Shown here piece by piece: positions 2,985 through 58,291 of a stretch of DNA of 58,291 nt. The position numbers and the translations under genes are program-made. This stretch comes from Clostridiales bacterium (GTDB lineage: Bacteria; Bacillota; Clostridia; Lachnospirales; Lachnospiraceae), in contig JAJQIK010000042.1 in NCBI GenBank assembly GCA_021199255.1, positions 2,246 to 60,536 of the forward strand, written 5' to 3'. The notes under the pieces are model-generated. The model was not told the origin of the DNA and searched no databases. It saw only the letters and a list, made by a program, of their open reading frames with translations. Each line of letters opens with the position of its first letter. Positions within the stretch are counted from its first letter, which is position 1.

Positions 2985-4481
2985 ATGGAAAAAAGTTTGA
3001 CATTACTGTCAAAATGCAATGCGATTCTGGACAAAGAACTGGACGGAAGGAAAAAGGGAATTTGGATTACGATGACGGTAAGCTTGATAACGATTATTCT
3101 ATCGCTTCCCTTTTTCAGTTGGGTCAAACTGGTGAATATTTCTGCTTTGTTTGCCAAAATGGGGATTACCAAAGAAATGGCGGCTAATTTATACACTGGT
3201 TATAGTATTTTCAACCTTCTATCATTTGTGCAGGAATCGGGGGAAGGAAGAATTGGCTTATATGCTATGATACTTCTGATTATTATGGCGGCAGCTCTCT
3301 ATTTTAACGTTGCCTATGTTGTCAGGGTGATTTTCAGGATAAAGGGGGATAAAGGAAATCTGAGCCTTTATGCTACCGGGCGGACGGCGATGTTGTTTGA
3401 AGTTATTTTAGCGGGAGCCACTATTGGCTACGTGGTTTTTGCGAACCGCAAGTTCGGTATGAAAGGTTTTCAAACATCGCCGATGGTATACATATTGCTG
3501 ATGATTTCTCTTTTCTCTTATCTGGTAATTAAATTAATGGAGGCGGAGGAGAGGACGCTTTATAAAGAGCATGGAATTTTGAAGGAAATCAGAAAGAACT
3601 GGGTATTGTTTGTGATGCTGGTTCCTACATTTATTTACTTTATGATTAACAATTATCTGCCCATGATTGGAGTGTATTATGCGTTTACTAATTTCAATTT
3701 CAGGGACGGTCTGTGGGGGAGCCCATTTGTAGGCTTTAAGAATTTTGAGTTCCTGATCAAAGCCGATTTGTTCCGGCTTACCAGAAACACTATTTTATAT
3801 AATCTGGTGTTTATCGGCGTAGGCAATATCCTACAGATTGTATTTGCGATCTTTGTCAGCCAGGTGACTGTAAAGTGGTTTAAAAAGACTACGCAGACGC
3901 TGATGTTTATGCCCTACTTTGTATCTTTCGTTATCTTAAAAGTATTGGTATATAACATTTTTGAATATCAGTATGGTTTGATTAACAATATCCTTATTTC
4001 CATGGGCGGGGATAGAATTGATTTTTATAATACGCCGTCTTACTGGCCGGTGTTGATTACGCTGTTTTACCTGTGGAAAAATATTGGCTACGGAATGGTT
4101 GTGTATCTGGCGACGATTATGGGCATTGACAGCGAATACTATGAGGCGGCAAAGGTGGACGGAGCCAATATCTTTCAGCAGATCTGGTATATTACGCTGC
4201 CGCTTGTAAAACCGACCTTTATTATTCTACTTCTCTATGCGCTGGGAAGTATTATGAAGGGGCAGTTTGAACTATTCTATCAAATGATCGGCAATAATGG
4301 AGTCCTTTATAATATTACGGATATCTTTGATACCTATGTATACAGAATTACCATGACTCAGCCGCTCAGCATTGGCCTCGGTACGGCAGCAGGCCTCTAC
4401 CAGTCGCTGTTTGGATTCATCATTGTAGTTCTGGTGAATTTCCTTGTGAAACGTAAAAATCCTGAATATGCATTATTCTAG
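2985..4481 (+). CDS. Carbohydrate ABC transporter permease, LplB type, with membrane N-terminal extension
   Basis: A 498-residue inner-membrane permease. The last ~300 residues (from about 203, KNWVLFVMLVPTFIYF) are a standard LplB/UgpA-type permease with the EAA loop EYYEAAKVDGANIFQQIW that docks on the ATPase. Family members are usually about 300 residues long. Here about 200 extra residues at the N-terminus carry roughly four more hydrophobic segments (about 28-48, 93-115, 130-155 and 170-190). I chose the ATG at 2985 because GGAGG lies at 2975-2979; the frame is open to 2904, but that region contains the operator and the promoter start point. It is first in an operon with the permease at 4500 and the binding protein at 5585. 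No ATPase gene is present, so a shared MsmK-type ATPase elsewhere is likely. Confidence 0.88.
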   Translation: MEKSLTLLSKCNAILDKELDGRKKGIWITMTVSLITIILSLPFFSWVKLVNISALFAKMGITKEMAANLYTGYSIFNLLSFVQESGEGRIGLYAMILLIIMAAALYFNVAYVVRVIFRIKGDKGNLSLYATGRTAMLFEVILAGATIGYVVFANRKFGMKGFQTSPMVYILLMISLFSYLVIKLMEAEERTLYKEHGILKEIRKNWVLFVMLVPTFIYFMINNYLPMIGVYYAFTNFNFRDGLWGSPFVGFKNFEFLIKADLFRLTRNTILYNLVFIGVGNILQIVFAIFVSQVTVKWFKKTTQTLMFMPYFVSFVILKVLVYNIFEYQYGLINNILISMGGDRIDFYNTPSYWPVLITLFYLWKNIGYGMVVYLATIMGIDSEYYEAAKVDGANIFQQIWYITLPLVKPTFIILLLYALGSIMKGQFELFYQMIGNNGVLYNITDIFDTYVYRITMTQPLSIGLGTAAGLYQSLFGFIIVVLVNFLVKRKNPEYALF

Positions 4482-51804: not shown

Positions 51805-52044
51805 ATGATGACAAAAACAGAAGCGGTATCGGAGCTTGTGAAAAGAGGCTATAGCGCCAGACTGGAAAGCGGAACGGTTAATATCTATGCGGCTGACGGA
51901 AAGCCCGGCCTTTCGGAAATCAAAAAGATTTTTAAAGAAATCGGATATCATCAAAGCTTTGGACTGATCGGAGAAACCTCCGCTAAGCCGGTTTATTCCG
52001 ATCTGCTTACGGGAGAAGAGGGACAGATATCCTTTGTGCTTTAG
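51805..52044 (+). CDS. Small hypothetical protein
   Basis: A 79-residue soluble protein, MMTKTEAVSELVKRGYSA..., with no signal peptide. It alternates helix- and strand-like segments (KPGLSEIKKIFKEIGYHQSFGLI) and ends hydrophobically (GQISFVL). I recognise no family. GGAAGGGAAAG upstream of the ATG and codon use like its neighbours support it as a real gene. It starts 23 bp after the MBL gene and may be co-transcribed with it. Confidence 0.6.
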   Translation: MMTKTEAVSELVKRGYSARLESGTVNIYAADGKPGLSEIKKIFKEIGYHQSFGLIGETSAKPVYSDLLTGEEGQISFVL

Positions 52045-52122
52045 GAGGTTTCCATATCTATAGGAAAAGGAATCAGAACTGTACACTGAGGATAACCAGG
52101 GAGAATAAGAGGAAACGTGCAT

Positions 52123-53136
52123 ATGAAAATAAAAGATATCCACGTCGCTATCGCAGCAGCTCTCCTTTGCGTGGCGCTTGCACTCACAGCCTGCGGGCAG
52201 TCCGCCGAAAGCGGCGTAATCAATGAAACAGAAACGGAAATAAACGCTGAAGCAAGCTCCGAAGCTGTGCCGGAAACTGAGGAAGAAGCCGAGGCGGAGA
52301 CTGTCGAAGCCAGCCTTACGCAAGCAGATGCGGAAAGCACAGACGATGCCGATATCTCCGCAGAAGCTGACACAACAGAAGCAGCTTCTGCGGACACGGA
52401 ATTGGCTGCTACCAAGACAGACTCAGAGTACACGTACGCCGATGTATCCGCTACGATGTATGCGACGGATACAGTAAACATAAGAACCTCCCCGACAACG
52501 GACGGCGATATAAGCGGCACGCTTCCATATGGCACAAGCGTGACCGTGACTGCCCGGTGCAATGAGACAGGCTGGTATAGAATTGACTATAACGACGACG
52601 CAGAGAGCTATGTGAGCGATAAGTATTTAAGCGATACACAGCCCGATACAACCACGGCGGCGTCATCTGAAACGGATACTTCAGACACTGATACAGTTAC
52701 GCAGTCCTCGGCAAGCGCCGAGTCGGACAAAGACGCGCAGGCGCGTGCCGTTGCGCAGCAGATTGCCGACAGCATTACAGGCGGCACTGATCTGGAGAAG
52801 GTAAGGAAGGCCGCCCAGATTGTGGCTTTATACTGCGCGAACGCAACCTATACGTCGTCAGACTCGGATTATAAGACCGCCTACGGCGTATTCTGCAAGG
52901 GTGTATATACATGTGCGGGTTCTACAAGGGCGCTCGGGCTGGTGCTGGAGTGCATGGGATACAGTTGGGAGCATGTGAACGCCAACCAGTATAGCCATCA
53001 ATGGTGCAAGGTAACCATGGACGGGCAGATTGGCTGGGCGGACGGTATGGGCGGAATTGCTGACTACGGCGAATGTCCCTTTGCCTATGGAGGGAGCTAT
53101 ACGGATTCCAACGGCGTGACGTATGCCGTACAGTAG
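52123..53136 (+). CDS. Lipoprotein with SH3 domain and transglutaminase-like domain
   Basis: A 337-residue lipoprotein: signal peptide with lipobox LALTAC, then a long Glu/Ala/Thr/Ser-rich linker (about 28-105). A bacterial SH3 domain follows (about 107-168, VNIRTSPTTDGDISGTLPYG...GWYRIDYND). The C-terminal domain has a transglutaminase-like catalytic triad: Cys264 in YTCAGSTRAL, His292 in YSHQWCKV and Asp307 in GWADGMGG. It probably sits on the outer membrane face and binds or modifies cell wall or surface proteins. ATG 52123 is preferred over GTG 52117 because of spacing from AGAGG. Protease or transglutaminase activity cannot be decided. Confidence 0.82.
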   Translation: MKIKDIHVAIAAALLCVALALTACGQSAESGVINETETEINAEASSEAVPETEEEAEAETVEASLTQADAESTDDADISAEADTTEAASADTELAATKTDSEYTYADVSATMYATDTVNIRTSPTTDGDISGTLPYGTSVTVTARCNETGWYRIDYNDDAESYVSDKYLSDTQPDTTTAASSETDTSDTDTVTQSSASAESDKDAQARAVAQQIADSITGGTDLEKVRKAAQIVALYCANATYTSSDSDYKTAYGVFCKGVYTCAGSTRALGLVLECMGYSWEHVNANQYSHQWCKVTMDGQIGWADGMGGIADYGECPFAYGGSYTDSNGVTYAVQ

Positions 53137-53233
53137 AATGGCAATTTCGTAACTATTCCCGAAAATTCAAAGATAAACTTGTAGGGGTCAATACTTCTTT
53201 GAAGGACTGTATCCATAAAGTCGGAGGAAATTT

Positions 53234-53692
53234 TTATTCGTTTGCAGGTTTATATCCGTAGGAATCGAGCTTTTGCAGAAGCTTCTCTTCCAAGGGTTTG
53301 TACTGCATCATTTTTTTAACCATGCTGTCAAATGAGCGGGTAAAGTGCATCATATAGTTACAGGGTGCGGCGTAATACATGGAATATTTTCTGACGCTGG
53401 CAAAAAATGTATCGGTAAATTCATTTTTGGATACGGGGTATTCCTTTGTTTCACCGCAGTACGTAATGCGGAGACATTGGCTGTCCATGGCAAGATGGAC
53501 AGGATCAGCTTCATCAAGGCAGTTGTTGTCATAAAGGGTGTACGTAAAGGTATCTTCGTTTCTTGCGCCCATCAGGGCATCTAAGAAACTGTCTGTCAGG
53601 GATTCTTTGCCCCCGGCATGCAGTTCGTATTGGTCTTTGTGGTTTATGATAAGTGTGGTGCCGAGTTCTTCCGGCATTGTGAAAGAAATCAT
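53234..53692 (-). CDS. Hypothetical protein downstream of fic
   Basis: A 152-residue soluble protein beginning MISFTMPEELGTTLIIN, with mixed strands and helices and no signal peptide. I recognise no family. GGGAGG precedes the ATG at 53692; an earlier start at 53731 would almost touch the fic stop and lacks a ribosome site. It lies 42 bp after fic on the same strand and may be co-transcribed with it. Its base composition is closer to the core genes than to fic. Confidence 0.65.
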   Translation of the reverse strand: MISFTMPEELGTTLIINHKDQYELHAGGKESLTDSFLDALMGARNEDTFTYTLYDNNCLDEADPVHLAMDSQCLRITYCGETKEYPVSKNEFTDTFFASVRKYSMYYAAPCNYMMHFTRSFDSMVKKMMQYKPLEEKLLQKLDSYGYKPANE

Positions 53693-53734
53693 ATGAGCAT
53701 CCTCCCTATCTTTTTTTAAATAGTATACCACCGT

Positions 53735-54808
53735 TTAAAAAGTTGTAAAGTCCTGTAAATTTCTTACATAATGCGTTTTTCTTCCTGCTCCTAGCTTTTT
53801 AATATATCCTTCTTCTGCTAATTTCTTTAGAGCAGACTCTACGGATGAACTACCAAGACTAGGACAGGAAATAAGAGCTTCCTGCTTTGTAAATGTGCCG
53901 ATTTTGTTGGAAGCATAGGTTTTTACAATATCATAGGAAGTTCTTTTGGAACCCGATTTCCAAGCTATATCTATTCTCTGCTCAAATTCTTTATAGCAGG
54001 ATAATATAATACCAAGCATATATTTTATAAATGCTTTTGGGTCGTTTTCATTTGTGTGCCATCCTGCATCAGCAACTGTAAGGGCATCATAATAGCTTTC
54101 CTTGGTATCTGCAATCGCCTTTTCGATACTGATGTACTTTCCTACTTCATAACCGCTTTTATATAAAAGTAAAAGGGTAAGAAGTCGGCTCATGCGTCCG
54201 TTACCGTCATTGAAAGGATGCACACATAGAAAATCTAATATAAAGCATGGTATCAAAATAAGTGGTTCTACAAGCTCTTTTTCGAGGACTTCCGTATAAC
54301 TGTTGCATATTTGATAAATTGCATCAGGTGTCTCGTATGGTTCTAAAGGCTGAAAAATAACTTTTTTTTCTCCGCTTGGAAGTATCATTGCAATTTCATT
54401 AGCAGTCGTTTTGAACTTTCCACCATAGGAAAAAGAGGTGTATTTAAGCATTTCTCCATGAAGCTGTAATATATAGTTTGAATTTACTGGCATATAATCA
54501 TGGTTTTCATGCACTAGATTAAGGGAGTTGCGATAGCCTAAAATTTCTTTTTCATCCCTGTTTCTTGGGGTGGTTTTATCCTCTACTAATTGTTTTAATC
54601 GGGAGCGTGTTGTAACAATTCCCTCGATGCTGTTGGATGCTTCGGTACTTTGAATTTTGGCAATTTCTACCAGTCTTTCCAATTCTACTGGCTTTTGTCT
54701 TACAAATAATTCCTGCCGTCCTTTATATTCTTGTATTTTGGAAATATAGGATATTATTTCATTATCCCATGTTCTTTCTGCAAGTTTGCTATAATCAAAT
54801 GTTCTCAT
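53735..54808 (-). CDS. Fic family protein (putative AMP-transferase) with C-terminal winged helix
   Basis: A 357-residue protein. The N-terminal Fic_N part carries the inhibitory helix motif SNSIEG (58-63, the [ST]xxxE[GN] form). The Fic core has HPFNDGNGR with catalytic His197. The C-terminal 60 residues (TFTKQEALISCPSLGSSSVESALKKLAEEGYIKKLG) look like a winged helix-turn-helix. Fic proteins transfer AMP (or other nucleotides) to target proteins; the built-in inhibitory helix means activity is probably restrained until a signal appears. The gene is clearly AT-richer than the genes to its left, suggesting recent acquisition. Its promoter region carries four regularly spaced boxes that the winged helix might bind. 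Confidence 0.9.
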   Translation of the reverse strand: MRTFDYSKLAERTWDNEIISYISKIQEYKGRQELFVRQKPVELERLVEIAKIQSTEASNSIEGIVTTRSRLKQLVEDKTTPRNRDEKEILGYRNSLNLVHENHDYMPVNSNYILQLHGEMLKYTSFSYGGKFKTTANEIAMILPSGEKKVIFQPLEPYETPDAIYQICNSYTEVLEKELVEPLILIPCFILDFLCVHPFNDGNGRMSRLLTLLLLYKSGYEVGKYISIEKAIADTKESYYDALTVADAGWHTNENDPKAFIKYMLGIILSCYKEFEQRIDIAWKSGSKRTSYDIVKTYASNKIGTFTKQEALISCPSLGSSSVESALKKLAEEGYIKKLGAGRKTHYVRNLQDFTTF

Positions 54809-54813
54809 AGAAA

Positions 54814-54885
54814 TCTCCCAACTGCTTTATTCTTTCTCCCAATTATACACTATGTTTGGGAGAAAAAGCAATCTGATTTGGGAGA
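54814..54885 (-). promoter_or_regulatory. fic promoter with four phased TTGGGAGA boxes
   Basis: Minus-strand TTGCTT (54871-54866), 18 bp, perfect TATAAT (54847-54842). The octamer TTGGGAGA occurs four times: as TCTCCCAA on the + strand at 54814 and 54835, and as TTGGGAGA at 54856 and 54878. The spacings are 21, 21 and 22 bp, two helical turns each. Two copies face one way and two the other, flanking the -35/-10 region. Confidence 0.7.
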
Positions 54886-55114
54886 AAAGCCATAAATACA
54901 TTTTTGGTATAGTATACAAATATAATGGAGAAATGGTATAATAAAAATATGGAAGGTTTCCAACAGTTAACAACTTTCTATAGTTTTTTATAAGTTTTCA
55001 GTAACGGTAGGGAGCAAATGGGAAAATATATCAGAAATATTTAAATGAAGTTTAGTATTTACAAGCATTAAATATCGGATAACAGCATATACTGAAAGTA
55101 GCTGTAGAAATTGC
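54886..55114. other. AT-rich intergenic stretch without a supported gene
   Basis: Two TATAAT-like strings (54921 and 54937) and a 14-codon open frame (54949-54993) without a ribosome site are present. I see no clear element until the RNA promoter at 55115. Confidence 0.5.
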
Positions 55115-55143
55115 TTGACATTAAGTTCAAAGTTAAGTAAGAT
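55115..55143 (+). promoter_or_regulatory. Promoter of the AbiF-associated RNA
   Basis: Perfect TTGACA (55115-55120), 17-bp spacer, TAAGAT (55138-55143). The expected start is near 55150. Confidence 0.75.
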
Positions 55144-55149
55144 GTATAC

Positions 55150-55217
55150 AGTGATCGCGTTGCAGAAACCTGTGAGGCCTGCGACCGGAGGAGAACCTGC
55201 GGGGTCTCCTCTTTTTG
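55150..55217 (+). ncRNA. Putative AbiF-type small RNA
   Basis: A roughly 68-nt transcript bounded by a consensus promoter and an intrinsic terminator (GAGGAGA/TCTCCTC arms then T5, 55189-55216), with no open frame. An upstream stem pairs GTTGCAG with CTGCGAC and encloses CCT-GTG-AGG. The 11-mer AACCTGYGRGG occurs in both hairpin loops (55167-55177 and 55194-55204). It ends about 20 bp before the abiF-like start codon. A structured RNA at this position is known for AbiF (Abi_2) genes. Assignment is by position and structure; no covariance search was possible. Confidence 0.72.
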
Positions 55218-55235
55218 CTTTAAGGAGATATTTAT

Positions 55236-56177
55236 ATGCCAAAGATTTTTTTGAATTATGATCAGCAAATAGAAAAACTGAAGAATGAAAAAAATCTGCA
55301 AATTGATGATGAGCTATATGCTAAAGAAATTTTAAGGCAGACAAGCTATTATTCATTGATTGGAGGTTATAAAGATATCTTCAAAAATCCAATAACCAAG
55401 AAGTATAAGGATGGAACAAGGTTTGAGGATATTGTAGAGTTGTATTATTTTGATGAATCTTTAAGGCAGTTGTTTTTGAGATATCTCATCAAAGTGGAAA
55501 ATGAGATAAAGTCACAGGTATCATACTATTTTACAGAGAAGAACGGGGAGAATCAGAAAGAATATCTTGATACTAAGAATTACAATTATGTAGGAAAGAA
55601 AAATCAAAGAGATATTGACCGTTTGATAAAGATATTGGAAGGGTATGCTACAAAGCCGGCAGATTACCATTACATAAATCATGCACAGAAAAAATATGGA
55701 AATGTTCCATTATGGGTATTGACGAATGCGTTAACATTTGGAAATATCTCAAAAATGTATATGCTGCTTCCGCAGGATATACAGATTAAAGTGAGTCGGA
55801 ATTATTCGTGTGTCAATGAAAGCCAGATGATATCCATTTTGACAGTATTGGTAAAGTTTAGGAATGTTTGTGCGCATGGTGAAAGATTGTTCACTTATAG
55901 AACTACCGATAGTATACCGGATTTACCGATACACATGAAATTAAAGATTGCTCAAAAAGGTACGCAATATGTGAACGGAAAGAATGATTTGTTTTCGGTA
56001 GTGATTGCTTTGAGATATTTATTGAGTGATGGTTGGTATAGGGAGTTTATCAAAGAACTTAAAATCTTGATTGATAAGTACCTTAAAAAGCACGATAGTA
56101 TATCGAAGCAGGAGTTGTACGAGAGAATGGGTTTCCCAGAAAATTGGAAAAAAATTACTAGGTACAGAAAACATTAA
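55236..56177 (+). CDS. AbiF/AbiD-like (Abi_2 family) HEPN-domain protein
   Basis: A 313-residue, Lys- and Tyr-rich soluble protein of the Abi_2 type. It opens with MPKIFLNYDQQIEKLKN, then SYYSLIGGYKDIFKNP, typical of AbiD/AbiF proteins. The HEPN RNase motif is R209-N-V-C-A-H214 (Rx4H) in VKFRNVCAHGERLF. Family knowledge: these proteins act in phage defence as RNases restrained by a small RNA. AAGGAG at 55222-55227 sets the ATG at 55236. Base composition is far lower in GC than the core of the window, as for fic. It is closed by a long inverted repeat (56184-56245). Toxin-like activity is inferred, not shown. Confidence 0.88.
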   Translation: MPKIFLNYDQQIEKLKNEKNLQIDDELYAKEILRQTSYYSLIGGYKDIFKNPITKKYKDGTRFEDIVELYYFDESLRQLFLRYLIKVENEIKSQVSYYFTEKNGENQKEYLDTKNYNYVGKKNQRDIDRLIKILEGYATKPADYHYINHAQKKYGNVPLWVLTNALTFGNISKMYMLLPQDIQIKVSRNYSCVNESQMISILTVLVKFRNVCAHGERLFTYRTTDSIPDLPIHMKLKIAQKGTQYVNGKNDLFSVVIALRYLLSDGWYREFIKELKILIDKYLKKHDSISKQELYERMGFPENWKKITRYRKH

Positions 56178-56183
56178 AAATAG

Positions 56184-56245
56184 AAAGTGAGCAGAATAAT
56201 GCCTCCAAGTTAACATAGATTTGGAGGCATTATTCTGCTCACTTT
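56184..56245. terminator. Perfect 25-bp inverted repeat after the abiF-like gene
   Basis: Arms 56184-56208 and 56221-56245 are exact reverse complements (each begins or ends with AAAGTGAGCAG/CTGCTCACTTT), with a 12-nt loop and TTTT after the right arm. It works as a strong terminator in form, but the length and perfection exceed all other terminators here except that of metQ, so a mobile-element remnant is possible. Confidence 0.75.
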
Positions 56246-56279
56246 TAAATCGGAACATCTATCCGAAAAGCTAAAACTA

Positions 56280-56387
56280 TGTAAAAACCGGTAGACGTGG
56301 TATACTATAGATTGTAAAATGTAGGAAAACGCCGCGGCCACCGATTTGTGCAGGGCTTTACAACTATTCTAAAAGTGGCATACTATA
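56280..56387 (+). promoter_or_regulatory. Two tandem promoters sharing GTGGYATACTATA
   Basis: P1: TGTAAA (56280-56285), 17 bp, TACTAT (56303-56308). P2: TTTACA (56357-56362), 18 bp, TACTAT (56381-56386). The string GTGGYATACTATA covers both -10 regions (56297-56309 and 56375-56387), 78 bp apart. They drive the SH3 membrane-protein gene. Confidence 0.6.
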
Positions 56388-56453
56388 CATATCGAATGAA
56401 AAGCAAACATACCAGATTCCGGTATGAGCAATAAAAATGGGAGGGTATAGTTT

Positions 56454-57497
56454 ATGAAAAATATTACAAGGACGGGAACATCTTATAAAAACAGGGTTAT
56501 TAACAGGGCATCTATTTTCGCAGTGCTTTTGTTGATGCTGGTATTTCTGCTGGTGAGGAATGTGTATAGGGCAGACTCACAATGGGACTCAGTAACGTCT
56601 GATGTCAGGGAACAATATTGCCTGGATACTATATCTTGGCTTATAAGTAGAGAAATGTATGATTTAGCATATTCCGAGTTGTTGGCGTTGGAACTTTCCC
56701 CGCAGACAGTTACTAATTATTTCAACTACTATTTTGCCAATGCTAAATCAACTATAAGAATAACTACATTCTACAATGCCTATGGGGATGCCATCAAGGC
56801 AGCAGGCCTGCTGCCCACGGATTATACTATACCAGGGGCATCATCTGCATCCACGGAAACCGCTACGGGGACAGGGGATGCTGCGGATACGGGGGAGGCG
56901 GCTGCCAGCCAGACATCCTTTACGGTAGAGGATATTGAGCCGGTGCCCATGTGGGCTACCAGCATTGTCAATGTCCGTGACGGCGCTGCCACGGATTACA
57001 GTGCGCTGGGGATGCTGGAACAGTATGAAGAGGTTACGGCTAACGGGCTTGCATCTACCGGATGGTACAGGATAGAATATGGGGACGGCACCGGCTATGT
57101 ATCCGGGAAGTTCCTGACGGATGAAGACCCTTCCAACAGGGAAGTCCCTGTATATAATGAAGAAACAGGGACTGTGGATACCATCAGCTTTGAAGATACG
57201 GACCCGGAGGTAATCGACGAAACGGTGGAAGCCATTAAGGAAGAGCAGAAGGAAACGGTGGAAGAGGAGCCTGCCGTAGAAGAAGAAACCGCTGCAGAAA
57301 CTGTTGAGGAACCGGAGGAAGAAGCGGAAGAGCCTGAAGGGGAAACAGACGGCGCATCCCGCCGGAAGTGGTACCTGTTATGCCTTGCAGGCTGTGCCGT
57401 TACGGCTGGCGTTGCCGCCTGCCTGTGGTTCTACCGGAGGAAGAAAAATGTAGCGGCAAACTATGCCAGCCATAACAGAGATGACTGCATTGATTAG
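56454..57497 (+). CDS. Membrane protein with extracellular SH3 domain and C-terminal anchor
   Basis: A 347-residue protein. An N-terminal membrane segment (about 19-39, IFAVLLLMLVFLLVRNVY) is followed by a helical region (45-115), a short Ala/Thr/Gly linker and an SH3-type domain (about 165-225, VNVRDGAATDYSALGMLEQYEE...GWYRIEYGDGTGYVSGKFL). A Glu-rich stretch (240-300) and a second membrane segment near the C-terminus (about 307-325), ending in RRKK, complete it. This suits a surface protein binding cell wall peptides, anchored at both ends. Family not recognised. GGGAGG precedes the ATG. GC content rises along the gene, so the N-terminal third and the rest may have different origins. Confidence 0.75.
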   Translation: MKNITRTGTSYKNRVINRASIFAVLLLMLVFLLVRNVYRADSQWDSVTSDVREQYCLDTISWLISREMYDLAYSELLALELSPQTVTNYFNYYFANAKSTIRITTFYNAYGDAIKAAGLLPTDYTIPGASSASTETATGTGDAADTGEAAASQTSFTVEDIEPVPMWATSIVNVRDGAATDYSALGMLEQYEEVTANGLASTGWYRIEYGDGTGYVSGKFLTDEDPSNREVPVYNEETGTVDTISFEDTDPEVIDETVEAIKEEQKETVEEEPAVEEETAAETVEEPEEEAEEPEGETDGASRRKWYLLCLAGCAVTAGVAACLWFYRRKKNVAANYASHNRDDCID

Positions 57498-57581
57498 GGA
57501 AATGGCTATTGCTATATTTTATTAGTGGTAAAAAGAGATATGCTTATTATGACATAGAAGAAATGATATTGCCCAAAAACA

Positions 57582-58202
57582 ATGATGCTTATAGATAAAA
57601 TAAAGAAAAATACAAGACAGGAAACCACAGCAGCCAATGAGAAAAAAATGAATATCTGGCCAGTGCTTTTTCGTATGGTCATTACGTTTTTGGTTGCCAG
57701 TTTTATATTGTTTTTTGTTATTCCTATTGGAAGAATATCTTCCGGGTCTATGGAACCGACGCTTATGGTTAACGACATAGGGATTTGTTATGGCCTTGCG
57801 TATCTGAATCAAGAGCCGCAAAGAGGCGACGTCGTTATATTTACGCAAACAAATGCCGGAGATGATGAAACATGGATTAAACGGATTGTGGGAATCCCTG
57901 GGGATTATATTCAGTTTCTGGATGGATATGTCTATATTGATGGAAAATTGCTAGAGGAAAGTTATCTGGGAGCAGATATGAGAACCTTCTGCGACAGAGA
58001 TTTTGAGGTTCCCGAAAACGCATATTTTGTCTTGGGTGATAATAGGATAAATTCTTGGGATTCAAGATGGTGGGAGCAGCCGTATGTCTTAGAGGAAGAT
58101 ATTAAGGGAAAGCTTGTAGCATCCATTCCTCTATCAAAATTGATAGATGCCATTAAAGAAAACATTCTTAATATTCATCAAAATGATTGCCACAAATTTT
58201 AG
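57582..58202 (+). CDS. lepB: Signal peptidase I
   Basis: A 206-residue membrane serine protease that removes signal peptides from exported proteins. It has one N-terminal membrane segment (about 27-48). The nucleophile is Ser56 in SSGSMEPTL and the general base is Lys100 in ETWIKRIVGIPGD. The later boxes are FVLGDNRINSWDSR and the C-terminal KGKLVASIPLSK. Type-I single-anchor form usual in Firmicutes. The start is ATG 57582 or 57585; no strong ribosome site is visible. It could be dedicated to a surface protein such as its upstream neighbour, or be one of several SipS-type paralogues. Confidence 0.92.
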   Translation: MMLIDKIKKNTRQETTAANEKKMNIWPVLFRMVITFLVASFILFFVIPIGRISSGSMEPTLMVNDIGICYGLAYLNQEPQRGDVVIFTQTNAGDDETWIKRIVGIPGDYIQFLDGYVYIDGKLLEESYLGADMRTFCDRDFEVPENAYFVLGDNRINSWDSRWWEQPYVLEEDIKGKLVASIPLSKLIDAIKENILNIHQNDCHKF

Positions 58203-58220
58203 AAAAAGTTTACAATTTTA

Positions 58221-58247
58221 TCAGCACTCTCTGTTAACGAGTGCTAA
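58221..58247. promoter_or_regulatory. CIRCE heat-shock operator (HrcA site)
   Basis: TCAGCACTC, 9 bp, GAGTGCTAA matches the CIRCE consensus TTAGCACTC-N9-GAGTGCTAA at all but one arm position. It predicts that the gene just beyond the window end is a heat-shock gene (groES, hrcA or dnaK group) repressed by HrcA. A TTTACA box at 58209-58214 may be part of its promoter. Confidence 0.88.
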
Positions 58248-58291
58248 TTAAGGTGATATTGTTAAATCATACAATAACGTTCTATTAATAA

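Follow-up and report, generated by a model that had tools for sequence, protein, structure and literature searches.

Introduction

Cas13 has been proposed to descend from AbiF-type toxins, and the way in which the RNA of such toxins turned into a guide is an open question. We describe here an Abi_2 (AbiD-type) HEPN protein gene, and the RNA element upstream of it, in a 58,291-nucleotide stretch of a Lachnospiraceae genome (contig JAJQIK010000042.1; the whole stretch is hereafter the window). Together they form a small gut-bacterial cassette that pairs a predicted RNA-cutting self-toxin with a conserved folded RNA that probably restrains it.

PbAbiF has been solved together with its non-coding RNA (PDB 8vz6, Zilberzwige-Tal et al., as cited in PMC12373285 and PMC12737573). 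It shares about 20% identity with the window protein, and its branch carries a hairpin of the RF03085 (abiF RNA) type whereas the window carries an unrelated-looking one; this contrast is drawn through the RF03085 model. For AbiF-Cd of C. difficile prophages, PMC12373285 describes an RNA, RCd22, that inhibits in cis and in trans and holds two abiF motifs, and a toxin that needs R202/H207; we recovered both motifs in phiC2, a near-identical prophage. The window resembles this system in its order of SigA promoter, short RNA, terminator and toxin gene, and in its single-protein HEPN toxin, but protein identity is about 30% (to phiC2), and the two abiF motifs of RCd22 are replaced by one hairpin of another family.

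The window protein also matches the PADLOC profile of lactococcal AbiD (PDLC02344, 220.7 bits, E 7.2e-66). The related AbiD1 has, as outlined in PMC12373285, a structured leader with an early-terminated transcript, the likeness to the window leader being one of description. ToxIN and other type III toxin-antitoxin systems share the leader RNA, the terminator and the RNase toxin (predicted in our case), with RNA and toxin genes under one promoter and a terminator between them, RNA-protein inhibition being likewise presumed here. They differ in that the window toxin is HEPN-fold and its RNA is one hairpin, not repeats or a pseudoknot: there is one copy in the window, and two at a related locus (L155). 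Cas13 differs further, as the window protein has 313 amino acids and one conserved R-x4-H, not two HEPN domains, and there is no guide; no CRISPR-like repeat array was found in 53000-57000.

Results

A promoter, an RNA and a predicted toxin gene inherited as one block

The initial annotation had read from this region a promoter, a structured segment of about 68 nucleotides with its own terminator, and an Abi_2-type gene with an Rx4H motif, all in an AT-rich module, and each of these was borne out. On the plus strand, a sigma-A type promoter (55115-55143: TTGACA at 55115-55120, a 17-nucleotide spacer, TAAGAT at 55138-55143) is followed by the RNA core at 55147-55188 (5′ AGUGA, 7-bp stem, 13-nucleotide loop), the predicted hairpin and U run of the RNA's intrinsic terminator (55187-55216), an AAGGAGA-like ribosome binding site (55222-55228, by eye and unscored) and the gene (55236-56177). 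A simple terminator scan missed the RNA's hairpin because it allows loops of 3-8 only. Beyond the gene, arms at 56184-56208 and 56221-56245 form a 25-bp, 100% complementary inverted repeat (56184-56245), likely a terminator and the right end of the conserved unit. G+C content is 0.34 in the unit against 0.49 in the window. When 52000-58291 was compared by blastn with 21 relatives, all matches fell within 55055-56281 and the surroundings differed; promoter, RNA, gene and end hairpin are therefore inherited as one block. Taken singly, the window promoter is at chance level: 54810-56300 holds 7 promoter-like sites, and shuffled versions hold 6.9. Nevertheless, a promoter in the same place recurs upstream of 40 of the 43 RNAs that have an unbroken Abi_2 gene behind them, and a terminator follows 42 of them.

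The 313-amino-acid reading frame has no internal stops. Pfam assigns it to Abi_2 (PF07751; 164 bits against a cut-off of 25.6, E 6e-48), the NCBIfam profile search of the protein returned nothing, and it is the sole Abi_2 match in the source genome (3.08 Mb, 93 contigs). All 44 aligned relatives keep R209, N210, A213 and H214 unchanged, and this HEPN R-N-x-x-A-H motif sits within a predicted fold like that of the solved AbiF (PDB 8vz6), the comparison that the initial annotation had proposed; all other Foldseek matches were non-significant. Motif and fold suggest that the protein is probably a dimeric HEPN ribonuclease acting via R209/H214. Just after the start codon (55246-55252, and in a like place in L007, L008 and L078) lies a homopolymer run whose length varies among near relatives, putting some of them out of frame while the window copy is in frame; this may be phase variation, decay or assembly error.

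The upstream element is conserved as an RNA

The segment 55150-55217, terminator hairpin included, has a folding energy of -28.1 kcal/mol (z -2.76). The slightly longer 55146-55217 gives z -2.90; in each case 1 of 200 shuffles was equally good. Cuts longer than these were weaker (55120-55217: z -1.49, 14 of 200 shuffles equally good; 55146-55240: z -2.17, with a different fold). The leader forms two hairpins with a U run after the second; the stem of the RNA pairs 55159-55165 with 55179-55185 around a loop with conserved C, G, G and G, and the predicted transcript start lies near 55150.

The initial annotation had treated RNA and gene as a unit, and the same element does stand upstream of close homologues: among relatives taken from the 79 loci of a protein search, at about 43-94% identity, we find AGUGA, the 7-bp stem and the 13-nucleotide loop, then a terminator. 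When 20 sequences are aligned, 99.2% of the stem is paired and 5 of its 7 pairs show double changes; RNAalifold arrives at this stem without being given it. The covariance model built from these 20 rows, R1, gives the window 65.4 bits, the window itself being among the rows. Across 60 model-aligned copies (54 distinct) the stem is 99.7% paired, with double changes at 6 of 7 pairs, and double-changed cells over the whole structure number 74, compared with 18.3 for shuffled alignments and no more than 7 for slid ones; this alignment was fitted to the structure and is biased in its favour. Within the loop, a mini-hairpin formed by columns 23-25/29-31 is weak, being 85.5-88.9% paired with one or two double-changed pairs, and RNAalifold omits it. 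Set A6 of the rows includes a lone RNA admitted in error (L158) and a second copy located behind its gene (L083); set A7 includes two loci with broken Abi_2 (L011, L078) and one where Abi_2 precedes the RNA (L176). Judged from these alignments, the conserved element functions as RNA.

The RNA differs from the abiF RNA of Rfam

No Rfam family reached its gathering threshold in the window, and a covariance search with the abiF RNA model RF03085 gave no match at E≤10 in 54810-55300. At gathering, RF03085 was also absent from L002, L023, L027 and L033; as positive controls it matched L073, L074 and both motifs of phage phiC2 (37.6 and 19.5 bits). Conversely, R1 matched none of 40 other loci (including L062-L064, L066, L071-L074 and L087) at E<10; run on the window plus these loci, its matches were confined to the window, one chance match included. 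The initial annotation, an intact AbiF-like RNA-antitoxin/HEPN-toxin unit, is partly supported: the unit layout and the intact gene hold, whereas the RNA gave no match to the abiF RNA family.

An Rfam E-value scan of the leader yielded 13 matches, all sub-threshold; one of the candidates considered, sbrA (RF01489) over 55146-55218, reached 15 bits (E 2.7) where gathering requires 45 and was set aside as chance. R1 did not match the leader of the Streptococcus satellite phage Javan72 (L084), where the loop of the Abi_2 leader hairpin looks slightly R1-like by eye. Our literature searches found no description of this RNA, within a coverage that left outside it the Cell 2025 AbiF/Cas13 paper and Weinberg 2017, which may describe it. 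By sequence, then, the window RNA is an unrelated-looking family, distinct from abiF RNA and unlisted in Rfam.

In a tree of 44 proteins, the kind of RNA tracks the protein clade. The 18 rows with R1 RNA form one group (support 97/93) together with L030, whose contig leaves no upstream room for an RNA; eleven Bacilli rows without R1 RNA and a Bacteroidota row (L041) form its sister group (100/100), and the carriers of abiF-like RNA fall in the opposite half (split 100/99), five of their seven labels being assigned by eye (L062, L063, L066, L071, L072) and two by Rfam (L073, L074). The Abi_2 proteins of the Bacilli relatives examined (L037-L059) keep the catalytic motif, but their genes have a very short leader with no R1 RNA; some of these loci have a divergent neighbour gene in common, as though settled in the chromosome. 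Some 650 bases before the abiF-like locus of L062 lies a DUF3800-XI RNA (RF02975, 56.1 bits, 4289-4336).

RNA and gene are associated across genomes

In searches with R1 alone, 15 of 391 class genomes contained 18 places and 65 of 397 family genomes contained 86, giving 96 distinct places in all. The class of Flavobacterium columnare (198 genomes), used as a control, gave two chance matches of 27.4 and 26.1 bits, and because of these we set a cut of 32 bits, which kept 87 places and dropped 9; the class of the L027 genome (197 genomes) gave three matches (50.6, 40.1 and 24.6 bits). Behind the 87 RNAs, Abi_2 was unbroken in 43 (meaning a stop-free tblastn piece of at least 270 amino acids, not a full gene check), broken or partial in 14 and absent in 25, with the contig end too close in 5. 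Promoter and terminator were present at 40 and 42 of the 43, 13 and 14 of the 14, and 19 and 24 of the 25, respectively, the promoter threshold being 8/12 or better and both scores being without a shuffled control. Among the 397 family genomes, each searched independently for both, Abi_2 occurred in 50 of 60 with the RNA and 70 of 337 without it (Fisher p 1.3e-20); RNA and gene therefore belong together. RNA-bearing genomes without Abi_2 numbered 4 of 14 in the class draw and 10 of 60 in the family draw.

Lone RNAs in prophages and elsewhere

Scans of viral contigs with seven patterns returned 14 contigs, with Abi_2 behind the RNA in 7 and not in 7, three of the latter (L199, L203, L207) leaving less than 900 bases of room. 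In five (L195, L196, L197, L201, L202) RNA and Abi_2 lie antisense and adjoin a tail tape-measure gene, identified by PHROG for L196 (E 3.1e-137) and by like N-termini for the other four. The RNA also occupies this site, complete with promoter and terminator but lacking Abi_2, in L199, L200 and a copy from a genome (L130); there it adjoins a gene for a ParE-like toxin (51.1 bits) and another that is Phd/YefM-like, just below cut-off. Genome G073, which has no Abi_2, carries two provirus copies, the first close to a terminase gene and the second to an HNH gene, and the IMG/VR proviruses L205 and L206 resemble its two RNA-bearing proviruses.

Other lone RNAs have neighbours of various kinds, for which no enrichment is claimed because they were picked for catching the eye: a 59-residue reading frame and a zeta-toxin-like gene (PF06414, 26.5 bits) behind an RNA with terminator in L187 (5229-6069) and L188 (the latter copy at 28.1 bits, below the 32-bit cut), a nucleotidyltransferase gene and an NTase_sub_bind gene behind L158 (3232-4045), AbiEii (L131) and DUF3990 (L192); a DUF1016 nuclease follows L176.

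Compared with their nearest cognates, lone RNAs still pair at 24 of 25 changed stem pairs, 16 by double change, in a set chosen by a pairing-rewarding model and with cognates that need not be ancestors. Among three pairs of near-copies the RNA was no better kept than its flanks: 39 of 42 positions identical between L199 and L200 (flanks 93-100%), 41 of 42 between L187 and L188 (97-100% from 200 bases before) and 42 of 42 between L185 and L186 (preceding 400 bases also 96-100%). At L078 (848-5259) the RNA is intact, Abi_2 is broken by inserts and a deletion, and a hairpin-bearing insert lies between the two.

Discussion

From the layout, fold, motif, RNA structure and association described above, we infer that the cassette is likely to encode a HEPN RNase toxin held back by an RNA, much as in type III toxin-antitoxin or abortive-infection units. 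A single promoter would yield mostly short RNA, ended at its terminator and so in excess, with occasional read-through giving the toxin mRNA. The toxin, a probable dimer, would cut RNA via R209/H214, and the RNA would bind and block it in trans via its conserved loop and 5′ AGUGA. If a phage halts or degrades host transcription, as the ToxIN and AbiF precedents suggest, the RNA would be lost first and the freed toxin would stop growth.

Several points weigh against this. Support for this clade is at the level of sequence; the window RNA is single copy, without repeats, and differs from the RNA whose binding was solved. The sister Bacilli clade retains the catalytic motif behind a leader without R1-type RNA, and such RNA is therefore dispensable for some Abi_2 proteins. 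The locus that speaks most directly for action in trans, L176, is a single case with a modest score.

That the unit instead stabilises mobile elements, or is a domesticated RNase control, with no anti-phage role, we consider unlikely. It does move as a block with no shared flanks and occurs in prophages, and many near relatives are broken, as expected of a dispensable addiction module; however, AbiF, AbiD and AbiD1 give phage resistance in L. lactis, according to PMC12373285.

It is rather improbable that the RNA is a purely cis-acting leader or attenuator, keeping the toxin gene off, with no protein contact, until a signal (a phage protein, cold) refolds it as in L. lactis AbiD1. RNA and terminator lie within the 5′ leader in all 43 cases with an unbroken gene, the longer cut adopts a different fold, and, in the account of PMC12373285, a phage protein acts on the 5′ untranslated region of AbiD1 to raise its translation. 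Against this, RCd22 works in cis and in trans (same source), and lone RNAs keep promoter and terminator with no gene to control. At L176 the RNA (33.0 bits) lies behind the gene under its own promoter, and no copy precedes the gene. In L083 a second copy, with promoter and terminator, follows the gene, and decayed-looking second copies do so in L145 and L153; L155 has two tandem units ahead of its gene, of which the first lacks a U run. These layouts favour a trans-acting RNA over a pure leader. A short coding region, with a GTG-started peptide read towards the Abi_2 start, we reject as barely conceivable: the core GTG is nearly invariant and 64 of 77 GTG cores are open across 13 codons, but 13 of 77 are interrupted by a stop, each of the three possible phases relative to Abi_2 occurs (17, 15 and 7 of 39), differences concentrate at second codon positions (319, compared with 163 and 170 at the other two), and the stem covaries by base pairs.

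For the lone RNAs, the plainest reading is decay, in which the toxin breaks and the harmless RNA lingers; 14 of 57 copies of at least 32 bits with any Abi_2 behind have it broken or partial. The pairing retained at 24 of 25 changed stem pairs speaks against a mere relic, subject to the bias of that model-chosen set. A bolder and doubtful proposal, drawn by analogy, is that a second family of RNA antitoxins, with no relation to abiF RNA, serves the HEPN toxins of the AbiD branch, and that phages and bacteria keep lone expressed copies as decoys disarming AbiD defence (an RNA anti-Abi). The candidates would then be the lone copies in the two G073 proviruses and at the tape-measure site of other prophages; precedents are the pseudo-ToxI of phage PhiTE (PMC3475682) and Racrs (PMC10651486).

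Within the window, the AT-rich stretch of the Abi unit also holds, on the minus strand, a gene for a Fic-domain protein (53735-54808; PF02661, SoFic-like in PADLOC), and a 36-nucleotide inverted repeat (53720-53755/56351-56386, 81% complementary) flanks both genes. The region of its right arm had one other match in the genome, of 31 bases and outside that arm, and corresponded to no known element.

Should a sister branch hold this kind of enzyme in check by an RNA of different build, then either RNA control in the family has had more than one origin or exchange, or a single RNA has diverged past recognition. The R1-type and abiF RNAs would, if this is true, allow two RNAs to be compared cleanly on the same fold; and the lone phage copies, if active, would be an RNA-based counter-defence that is directly testable.
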